Positions 29,303 to 33,092 of a stretch of DNA of 64,000 nucleotides are shown here, in pieces. Numbering within the stretch: position 1 is the stretch's first letter; the number at the start of each line of letters is the position of its first letter. This stretch comes from an uncultured Bacteroidales bacterium (GTDB lineage Bacteria > Bacteroidota > Bacteroidia > Bacteroidales > UBA932). The stretch is from NCBI GenBank assembly GCA_946410455.1, contig CAMKAJ010000005.1, positions 1 through 64,000 on the forward strand, written 5' to 3'. The position numbers were made by a program, and so were the translations under genes. A model generated the notes under the pieces. It searched no databases. It saw only the letters and a program-made list of their open reading frames with translations, and was not told the origin of the DNA.

Positions 29303-30295
29303 ATGGCAGAATCCAACTTCATAGACTACGTAAAGATATACGCTGCGTCCGGGCACGGGGGCGCGGGGAGCATGCACCTTCACCGGGCTAAGTATATCCC
29401 TAAGGGAGGGCCTGACGGGGGTGACGGGGGCCGTGGTGGGCATATTATCCTTAGGGCCAATGCTCAGTTTTGGACGCTGATACATCTCAAGTACCGCAAA
29501 CACATCAAGGCCGATGACGGAGAGAAAGGGGGCGCTGCACTTTGCAAGGGCAAGAACGGTACCGACATTATCCTGGATGTTCCTGTTGGCACCGTGGTAA
29601 AAAATGCCGATACCGGAGAGCAGCTCTTCGACCTGATGACCGACGGGGAGGAGCGTATTCTCTGCCAGGGCGGCAAGGGGGGATGGGGTAACGACCACTT
29701 CAAGACAGCCACCAATCAGACTCCGCGTTATGCCCAGCCGGGCGAGGATGGAGAAGAAGGGGTATTCGTTCTGGAACTCAAGCTCCTTGCTGACGTGGGG
29801 CTCGTGGGCTTCCCGAACGCGGGTAAGTCTACGCTGCTCAGCACCATCACTTCCGCCAAGCCCAAGATTGCCTCTTATGCGTTCACTACGCTGGAGCCTA
29901 ATCTGGGGATAGTGCGCTATTTCGACGACCGTTCTTTCGTGATGGCCGATATCCCCGGAATTATTGAAGGGGCCCACGAGGGGAAGGGCATTGGTACCCG
30001 ATTCCTGCGGCATATTGAGCGCAATTCTGTGCTTCTCTTCATGGTGAGTTGTGAGGAAGACGACATCAACACCAGCTACAAGACACTGCTATCCGAGCTC
30101 AAGCTGTATAATCCGGAGCTTATGGACAAACAGCGCGTTCTGGCTATCACCAAGTGCGATATAATCGACGAAGAAATCGAGAAAGAGCTCGCAAAGAGTC
30201 TCCCCAAGCGTATCCCTCACGTTTTCATTTCTTCCGCTTCCGGCGAGGGCCTTGATAAGTTGAAAGACGAGCTATGGAAAGCCTTGCAGAAGTAG
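29303..30295 (+). CDS. obg: Obg family GTPase
   Basis: Obg fold Gly-rich N-terminus, [21 protein letters not shown]. Confidence 0.95.
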
Positions 30296-30879
30296 GCGGC
30301 ATCCTGGGCCGGGCCGAGCAGCTCGACCGCGACCTTACGCTTGCAATCAACGCATGGCATAATCCCGTAACGGATGCCGTGTGGCATTTTTTCTCGCAGG
30401 TGCAGATATGGTACGCTATGTACCTGATTATCATTGTGTTTTTCTTTATCCGCCTGGGCTGGAAGAAGGCCCTGGTGGTAACGCTCTCATGCATCCTGTT
30501 CGTGCTAGCCTGTGACCAGTTTGCCAACCTTATTAAACACGGCGTGGCGCGCCTTCGCCCAATGGAAGATGCTGATATGCTTGCCCGTGGATTGCACATG
30601 CTTGAAGAGCACGGCGGGCTGTACGGCTTCTTCTCCGCACATGCAGCCAACAGCCTGGGCTTTGCCGTATGTTCCAGTATGGGATTCAAGAACGACCGTC
30701 GTCGCAGTTACAGGGGGTACAGCTTGTTTATCTATGTTTGGGCTATCCTTGTGGGCGTAAGCAGGGTGTTCGTTGGCAAGCATTTCCTTGGCGATGTGCT
30801 GGTGGGCTTTGCTGTAGGCGCTTTGTTTGGCTGGCTTTTCGGCAGTGTGGCCCGATTGGCCTGCAAAAAAATCGAGTAA
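30274..30879 (+). CDS. PAP2-family membrane phosphatase
   Basis: [38 protein letters not shown]. Confidence 0.85.
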
Positions 30880-30953: not shown

Positions 30954-33092
30954 ATGAATATCAAGCACTTACTCCTTCTTCTTTTGCTTCCGGCAGTCAT
31001 AGCATGCGAGAAGCCAGATGATCCCAGTGTTACTCCTCCGCCTCCGCCCCCTTCCGGAGAGACCGATCCAGAGAATCCCGGTGGTACAGAAACCCCGGGG
31101 GTTCCTACTTCTTCTGGGGAGTATATAGTGGTAGGTTACGATTATGCAGACAGCGGTGTTCTGCCGAATCCTGAGCTGCTGACACATATAAATTTCTCAT
31201 TTGCCAAGATTCAGGACGATTTTGAGAGTCTGAGCATACGAGAAAAGAAGATCCAGCGCCTGCAGCAGATAGTGGGACTGAAATCCCAGAAGCCGAGTCT
31301 GAAGGTCCTGCTGTCTATAGGTGGATGGGGCGCCGGCAATTTCTCTGAGATGGCTGCCGACGAGACTCACCGCAAGAATTTCTGCAACAACTGCCTTGCC
31401 GCAGTCAATACCTATAAACTCGATGGCATAGACTTGGACTGGGAATATCCAACAAGCTCCGCCGCCGATATTAGTTCGTCGCCTAACGATACCAGGAATT
31501 TCTCTCTGCTCCTTAAGGATTTGCGCGAGGTTCTAGGTAGCGGCAAGCTCATCACCATGGCCTCGGAGGCAAGTGCGCATTACATAGACTGGAGCACTGC
31601 ACTGGAATATCTGGACTTCGTGAATATCATGAGTTACGACATGGGTAAGCCGCCGTATCACAATGCGGCCCTGTACAAGTCTCCCAACTCCAAGAATAGT
31701 TGCGAGGAAGCTGTGGAAAAGCATTTTGCAAAGGGCGTCCCGTACGAGAAGATGACACTCGGGCTGGCTTTCTTCGGGCGTTCAGATAGTAAAGTCTTCG
31801 GCAAAGATGAGCTCGACTATAACAAGATTATCAGCCTCAGCGGTTACAACAAGTGCTGGGACGACCAGGCCAAGGTCCCTTATCTTACAGATGGCACCGG
31901 AACTATGGTGGTCAGCTTCGACGATGAAAGCTCCATAAGCCTCAAGGCGGAATTCATTAAGCAGAAGGGCCTGCTGGGCGGAATGTACTGGGATATCGAA
32001 GGAGACGACGCCGACTGGAGCCTCGGAAAGACTGTCGCTGCCTCGCTTCTGGGATGGAAAGACGCAGAAGCTCAGAGCAAGGCTTTTCTGGCAACAAATT
32101 CCTATGTCCAGAAGTACATGGAAGAGGTGGATTACGGCGATTCCGATTACACCTATTCAAAGGTTATCGGATATCCCGGCGGCGGCCCTAGCGTCAACAA
32201 CGAAGAGCTCCCTCCTACCTATACAATCACTTGGAAAGCCTTTAACCTGGGCTCTCAGAAGCTGACAGTCTGGGAACAGGACTGGAGCCGTGAGTATGAG
32301 CTTGCGGCCGGCGTTGGCAAGCAAGACATTACCAATCTCGTTCCTGGCACAACCTATTATTGGCACGTAAGCTCAGGTAGCGCGTTCGTGGCCAGCGGCA
32401 AGTTCGAAACAAGGGGACTGCTGCATCAGGTCTATTATGCCCCCAACGTACGCAACGGCCGCGACCTTGGCGGTTGGAAGGGCCTGGGCGGCAAGACATT
32501 GGCCTATCATAAACTCTATCGCGGCGGTGCTATTCATGGTTCGCGCTGCAGTAAGGAGGGCCGTCAGGAGATGCTTGCAGAAGGAATAAGGGCGGAGGTG
32601 GACCTGCGTGAGTCTTCCGACGTGCCTTCGGAATCTCCTCTCGGCAGCCAGGTGGCTTTTTATGCTCCCGGTTTCGACAGCGGTTACAACCACATGATCA
32701 GGGACAACAAGCCCAAGATGAGAGATACCTTCATGTGGGTGGTAGCACGCCTGCGCGAGAACAAGCCCGTGTATTTCCATTGTGCCGCTGGCCGCGACCG
32801 CACCGCCACCCTCGCCCTCCTTCTGGAAGGCGCCCTGGGCGTGAGCGAGAGCGATATGGCCAAGGATTACGAGCTTACTTATTTTACTCCTGCAGACTGG
32901 GGTATGTCTACCGAGGATGGAAATCCGGTGTACAAGCATACCAGAGATAATTACAGCTATGGCTCTATCCGTAAGACCATATACAGTGAAACTCAGTCCG
33001 GCACCTACCAGGAGAGAATAGTAGAGTATCTCTTGAGCATCGGTGTCCCGCAGAAAGACATCGACGACCTGAGGGCCATAATGCTGCGATAA
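30954..33092 (+). CDS. Lipoprotein fusion: GH18 chitinase-like domain + FN3-like linker + C-terminal protein tyrosine phosphatase domain
   Basis: Lipobox LLPAVIAC; GH18 DGIDLDWE; SIGGWG; PTP signature HCAAGRDRT and NVRNGRDLGGWKGLGG. Confidence 0.88.
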   Translation: MNIKHLLLLLLLPAVIACEKPDDPSVTPPPPPPSGETDPENPGGTETPGVPTSSGEYIVVGYDYADSGVLPNPELLTHINFSFAKIQDDFESLSIREKKIQRLQQIVGLKSQKPSLKVLLSIGGWGAGNFSEMAADETHRKNFCNNCLAAVNTYKLDGIDLDWEYPTSSAADISSSPNDTRNFSLLLKDLREVLGSGKLITMASEASAHYIDWSTALEYLDFVNIMSYDMGKPPYHNAALYKSPNSKNSCEEAVEKHFAKGVPYEKMTLGLAFFGRSDSKVFGKDELDYNKIISLSGYNKCWDDQAKVPYLTDGTGTMVVSFDDESSISLKAEFIKQKGLLGGMYWDIEGDDADWSLGKTVAASLLGWKDAEAQSKAFLATNSYVQKYMEEVDYGDSDYTYSKVIGYPGGGPSVNNEELPPTYTITWKAFNLGSQKLTVWEQDWSREYELAAGVGKQDITNLVPGTTYYWHVSSGSAFVASGKFETRGLLHQVYYAPNVRNGRDLGGWKGLGGKTLAYHKLYRGGAIHGSRCSKEGRQEMLAEGIRAEVDLRESSDVPSESPLGSQVAFYAPGFDSGYNHMIRDNKPKMRDTFMWVVARLRENKPVYFHCAAGRDRTATLALLLEGALGVSESDMAKDYELTYFTPADWGMSTEDGNPVYKHTRDNYSYGSIRKTIYSETQSGTYQERIVEYLLSIGVPQKDIDDLRAIMLR

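Follow-up and report, generated by a model that had tools for sequence, protein, structure and literature searches.

The gene at positions 30954 to 33092 of the window (the whole 64,000-nucleotide stretch of DNA analysed, from an uncultured Bacteroidales bacterium) raises two questions: whether a GH18 glycosidase and a phosphatase are truly joined in one protein and, if so, what substrate the two might share.

Domain architecture of the fusion lipoprotein

The open reading frame runs on the forward strand from an ATG to a TAA codon with no internal stops. It, its features and its upstream neighbour are as follows.

30274..30879, +: PAP2-type membrane phosphatase (by eye), the upstream neighbour, 74 bp before the fusion; linkage to the fusion is not implied
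30954..33092, +: GH18 + FN3 + Y_phosphatase3 fusion lipoprotein, 712 aa (open reading frame, Pfam, 38 distinct fusion proteins)
30954..31007, +: lipoprotein signal peptide with lipobox VIAC (Cys18), read by eye
31008..31121, +: Pro/Gly/Glu-rich tether (low confidence in the model)
31164..32006, +: GH18 catalytic domain, residues 71-351 (Pfam PF00704, 1e-65; Foldseek chitinases)
31422..31445, +: GH18 active site DGIDLDWE, residues 157-164, invariant except for Leu/Ile at residue 161
32082..32438, +: N-terminal part of the FN3-phosphatase module, with the FN3 sandwich at about residues 420-488 (model pLDDT 91; FN3 matches)
32442..33086, +: Y_phosphatase3 domain, residues 497-711 (Pfam PF13350, 1.7e-24; Foldseek PtpB, 4e-9)
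32778..32804, +: phosphatase P-loop HCAAGRDRT, residues 609-617 (HC[AS]AGRDRT in every fusion covering the P-loop)

The Glyco_hydro_18 profile of Pfam matched residues 71-351 with 223 bits against a curated cut-off of 29.6, and the Y_phosphatase3 profile matched with 87.5 bits against a curated cut-off of 22.2. The DxxDxDxE signature of GH18, here DGIDLDWE, is conserved among the fusion homologues together with the YD of the family (in MSYD) and its terminal Trp (in MYW), and an NVRNGRDLGG motif is also present in the window protein. The N-terminus, MNIKHLLLLLLLPAVIAC, was read by eye as a lipobox, of which Cys18 is kept in at least 90% of the aligned homologues. An AlphaFold2 model of the whole fusion had a mean pLDDT of 79.5, and residues 377-712 modelled alone reached 91.2; Foldseek matched the whole model to chitinases and the FN3 part of the C-terminal module to the fibronectin type III structures 4m6a and 2h41. 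What the original prediction had termed an 'FN3-like linker' is therefore a genuine domain, and the FN3-phosphatase module to which it belongs also occurs without GH18, in stand-alone proteins.

Conservation and distribution

Scanning a collection of 84,980 species genomes and searching 101 genomes from the genus to which the window belongs brought to light 38 distinct fusion proteins, of which 35 are full-length. Wherever the relevant region is covered, the GH18 motif reads DGID[LI]DWEYP and the P-loop HC[AS]AGRDRT[AG], and every full-length member keeps both catalytic motifs, at identities that fall to 46-78% in the two halves. Chance joining is excluded, because the 38 fusions come from different genomes and both active sites are conserved; an assembly or frameshift fusion of neighbouring genes, the outcome that would have undone the original prediction, is likewise ruled out by the 35 full-length homologues, and the gene is a single intact one. 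The claim that GH18 and a CX5R phosphatase reside on one secreted lipoprotein was thus correct, the combination being both conserved and unusual, and we regard the architecture and its conservation as virtually certain.

The fusion is carried by 14 of the 101 genomes in the genus sample, and only single-half matches, with no fusion, were found outside the genus among 393 order-wide or 396 phylum-wide genomes (the window's own genome excluded). Public records with the fusion are mostly metagenome-assembled genomes (MAGs) of rumen or gut Bacteroidales, and a plasmid collection gave partial matches only, with no record covering most of the protein. The architecture thus appears to be restricted to a single genus, possibly Cryptobacteroides, whose members are uncultured Bacteroidales mostly from the rumen. 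Open-licence papers yielded nothing relevant on a GH18-phosphatase fusion, which is weak evidence of novelty.

Class of the phosphatase half

The closest Foldseek matches of the modelled C-terminal module were 2oz5, 8dhi and 1ywf (E about 4e-9 to 2e-8, TM 0.4-0.6), the nearest folds being those of Mycobacterium tuberculosis PtpB and a Clostridioides difficile PTP. The translated sequence lacks the WPD loop that a classical protein tyrosine phosphatase would have. Atypical lipid phosphatases (ALPs) also lack this loop; they carry the motif HCXXGKDR[TA]G, in which the P-loop Asp is probably the general acid, and MptpB and its characterised ALP relatives act on phosphoinositides (PMC3091653), while the environmental ALP Pho16B combines broad phosphatase activity with that of a phytase (PMC6409689). 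The window protein resembles MptpB, Listeria LipA and Pho16B in its fold, in a CX5R loop with Asp before Arg and in the Y_phosphatase3 profile, but differs from them in the FN3 domain in front, in the fused GH18 and in the P-loop itself (HCAAGRDRTA), where Lys is replaced by Arg and the last Gly by Ala. Because of this Arg, we class the phosphatase half on its sequence as PtpB-like rather than as a strict ALP member, within a PtpB/atypical-lipid-phosphatase branch whose known substrate range is broad and includes inositol phosphates. Of the earlier description as a protein tyrosine phosphatase, the CX5R phosphatase stands; the more specific label does not, given the PtpB-like fold, the P-loop Asp and the missing WPD loop.

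Affinities of the GH18 half

The best NCBIfam model for the fusion was the chitinase ChiD, below its equivalog cut-off. Models of endoglycosidases stayed below cut-off: the EndoH-type Endoglyc_H model of NCBIfam scored 34 bits, far below its cut-off of 300, and the EndoS barrel of Pfam 21.1 against 27. In Foldseek the window GH18 was 34% identical to the CotE chitinase domain and 33% to PbNag39. It shares the fold and the DxxDxDxE site with the group formed by CotE, PbNag39, ChiW and ChiD, although no member of that group joined to a phosphatase was found; the CotE chitinase domain is joined to a peroxiredoxin (PMC7278498). The GH18 domain would cut beta-1,4 amino-sugar chains containing GlcNAc.

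Gene context in related genomes

The genes around the fusion in the window look, by eye, like housekeeping genes (Obg-like, PAP2-like and HypB-like), and no recognised PUL neighbour was found there, nor at roughly half the loci that carry the fusion. A SusC/SusD pair is absent from the window locus, but four relatives (G026, G056, G057 and G037) have one in the gene cluster of the fusion, and the window's own genome has one on another contig. In G056 (L148) a single strand encodes, in order, an AraC-type regulator, GH18, SusC, SusD, SusC, SusD, two BACON proteins, the fusion, an alkaline phosphatase and GH18. The fusion also lies inside a PUL in G026 (L160/L161), where GH20, alkaline phosphatase and GH2 genes adjoin it, and in G057 (L168/L169) and G037 (L166/L167), where about 35 kb comprise GH20, a ROK kinase, GH2, alkaline phosphatase, SusC, SusD, BACON, a GH18 with a propeller, MINPP and the fusion. 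An unfused arrangement occurs in G021 (L147), with SusC, a SusD-like protein (by eye), an FSU-domain protein, alkaline phosphatase, an FN3-phosphatase, a propeller and GH18 on one strand. The corresponding PUL of the window's own genome lies at about 88-119 kb on contig C1, of which the window gene would be a detached satellite. The fusion is, very probably, linked to a chitin/chitosan PUL.

Several further proteins were seen in these regions. GH18-beta-propeller fusions recur beside the GH18-phosphatase gene (L018, L020, L027, L012 and L008); for the propeller, the matches, of phytase-like and SdiA-regulated type, were weak and did not reach the cut-off in the fused proteins, and a PDB search was uninformative. 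Exo_endo_phos family proteins lie near the fusion in L018 (Pfam match) and L016 (sequence similarity). One protein cluster (cluster '0') was rejected as a GH18 array: shared fimbrillin-like domains had misled the grouping, and Pfam and domain-wise BLAST identified only some members as GH18.

The PUL GH2 that was tested, from G026, is closest to the exo-beta-D-glucosaminidase CsxA (2vzs; E 3e-122), which rules out a beta-mannosidase acting on the N-glycan core. A CsxA-like enzyme suggests chitosan, or chitin that has lost part of its acetyl groups, as the predicted substrate. The GH2-type gene was found in all 14 fusion genomes compared with 20 of the 87 others (Fisher p 2.7e-8, uncorrected for relatedness). 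In the window's own genome, unlike in CsxA, the GH2 is itself fused to a phosphatase: an open reading frame of 1196 aa (G000:C1:113596-117183, minus strand; L157:9596-13183) combines an exo-beta-glucosaminidase-like GH2 with an alkaline phosphatase. Among the 101 genus genomes, this fusion is uninterrupted in eight, one frame with a stop in three more and represented by adjacent genes in 11. The Ser and metal-site motifs of the alkaline phosphatase look intact, by eye, in the own-genome protein.

These loci resemble the chitin loci of Flavobacterium johnsoniae and Chitinophaga pinensis in having GH18 with SusC/D, and that of F. johnsoniae also in GH20 and two SusC/D pairs, but add alkaline phosphatase, MINPP, Y_phosphatase3 and the GH2 exo-beta-glucosaminidase. 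The papers on the two chitin PULs mention no phosphatase (PMC5127042, PMC10449523), and the fusion-associated PUL therefore looks like a distinct variant of the chitin PUL; for the same reason, phosphate removal is evidently unneeded for ordinary chitin.

Other phosphatases associated with the fusion

A MINPP-type phosphatase adjoins the fusion in seven of about 36 loci, where chance would give about 0.4 (relatedness uncorrected); the gap is 3-21 bp in six loci, two of them with MINPP on the opposite strand, and 1.3 kb in the seventh. The one such neighbour tested matches the Bacteroides thetaiotaomicron MINPP BT_4744 (E 3e-43), a similar histidine phosphatase, although here it is encoded beside a chitinase-phosphatase fusion. 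A single amino-sugar PUL is thus repeatedly accompanied by three phosphatases whose folds are unrelated, and two of the three are joined to glycosidases.

Where FN3-phosphatases stand alone, in other genomes, they adjoin SIS, GatZ/KbaZ, PfkB, DeoR and melibiase or melibiase-like genes, a set that looks like galactosamine catabolism. FN3-phosphatase lipoproteins beside such genes, often in tandem pairs, were observed in L141, L142, L143, L144, L149 and L155.

Proposed function

The architecture, its conservation, the intact active-site motifs and the gene context in relatives are observations; from here we infer that the two halves are catalytically active, that they share a substrate and that this substrate is laden with phosphate. 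The explanation that we favour, and consider probable as a whole, is a surface- or periplasm-facing lipoprotein of a chitin/chitosan system, with two predicted working enzymes that cut an amino-sugar glycan and strip off the phosphate that the glycan binds or holds in a complex. The PtpB-like phosphatase, joined by FN3, would take phosphate off the polymer cut by the GH18, whether the polymer carries that phosphate or forms a complex with it; the phosphate might be a phosphomonoester, polyphosphate or phytate, and the oligosaccharides would then be importable through SusC/D and the phosphate recovered. The recurrence of three phosphatases of unrelated fold around the PUL, two fused to glycosidases, is most simply accounted for by a polymer that bears phosphate or binds it. 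Our working hypothesis, for which we judge the chances to be about even, is that phosphate is removed from the glycan or from its counter-ions. Alkali-insoluble wall material of zygomycetes is at least 17% phosphate and also contains chitosan, and a chitosan-phosphate complex was discussed by the authors (PMC2996746); such a wall would be a phosphate-laden substrate by analogy, an encounter of these bacteria with it being hypothetical. The original prediction had proposed phosphoesters of either host or polysaccharide as the target. The polysaccharide reading gains from the phosphatase-rich chitin/chitosan PULs of the relatives, whereas the host glycan and phosphoprotein reading gains nothing, given endoglycosidase scores below cut-off and the chitosan-type GH2.

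Extracellular phosphatases could, however, serve general phosphate scavenging, and the statistics above overstate independence, as relatives share ancestry. The phosphatase half might be a phytase or inositol-phosphate phosphatase that serves phosphorus nutrition and is attached to GH18 only because both act on the same particles of plant or fungal debris, with no chemical link between glycan and phosphate. The MINPP neighbours, the phytase-like propellers that in these arrays either adjoin a GH18 or are fused to one, and the precedent of Pho16B (PMC6409689) agree with this, but the propeller matches are weak and below cut-off in the fused proteins, and general scavenging would predict neither phosphatase-glycosidase fusions in two separate genes nor phosphatases that turn up repeatedly beside amino-sugar genes, in each of two pathways; we consider it unlikely. 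Very unlikely, in our view, is an effector-like enzyme that works on the surface of a host or a ciliate, removing glycans from glycoproteins and phosphate from phosphotyrosine or phosphoinositides: PtpB and the C. difficile PTP belong to a family with virulence roles, but the endoglycosidase models stay below cut-off, the linked genes are catabolic and the WPD motif is absent. That one half is a non-catalytic relic serving in binding is extremely unlikely, since the general point that pseudo-enzymes are common among multi-domain proteins is all that favours it, and both halves keep their catalytic motifs in every full-length member despite 46-78% identity.

If the polymer is indeed laden with phosphate, the fusion may, more tentatively, represent an undescribed PUL class for such amino-sugar polymers, in which phosphatases of unrelated fold are repeatedly joined to glycosidases (GH18-Y_phosphatase3, GH2-alkaline phosphatase) and both bonds need to be broken jointly; the polymers could be fungal walls with chitosan-phosphate or polyphosphate and, judging from the parallel galactosamine-type clusters, others. 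Phosphate on or in amino-sugar polymers is rarely considered in glycan-utilization biology, and two glycosidase-phosphatase fusions in one genome point at a substrate that can be named experimentally. It would link the release of carbon, nitrogen and phosphorus, perhaps from rumen fungal walls.

Origin of the two halves

In trees made by quick searches, with no bootstrap, the GH18 halves of the fusions formed essentially one clade (SH-aLRT 96), which includes one stand-alone GH18 and a frame-broken fusion, and the phosphatase halves intermingled with stand-alone FN3-phosphatase lipoproteins. The GH18 halves of L025 and L026 fall with that of the window protein but their phosphatase halves elsewhere, so that halves seem, from these trees, to have been exchanged between fusion genes. 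Two members of unusual form were also seen: in one MAG the fusion gene is split over two reading frames (L033:5629-8170), by assembly error or decay, and in another locus (L007:4888-8022) the fusion carries an extra N-terminal region, fimbrillin-like and BACON-like by eye, for a total of 1045 aa.
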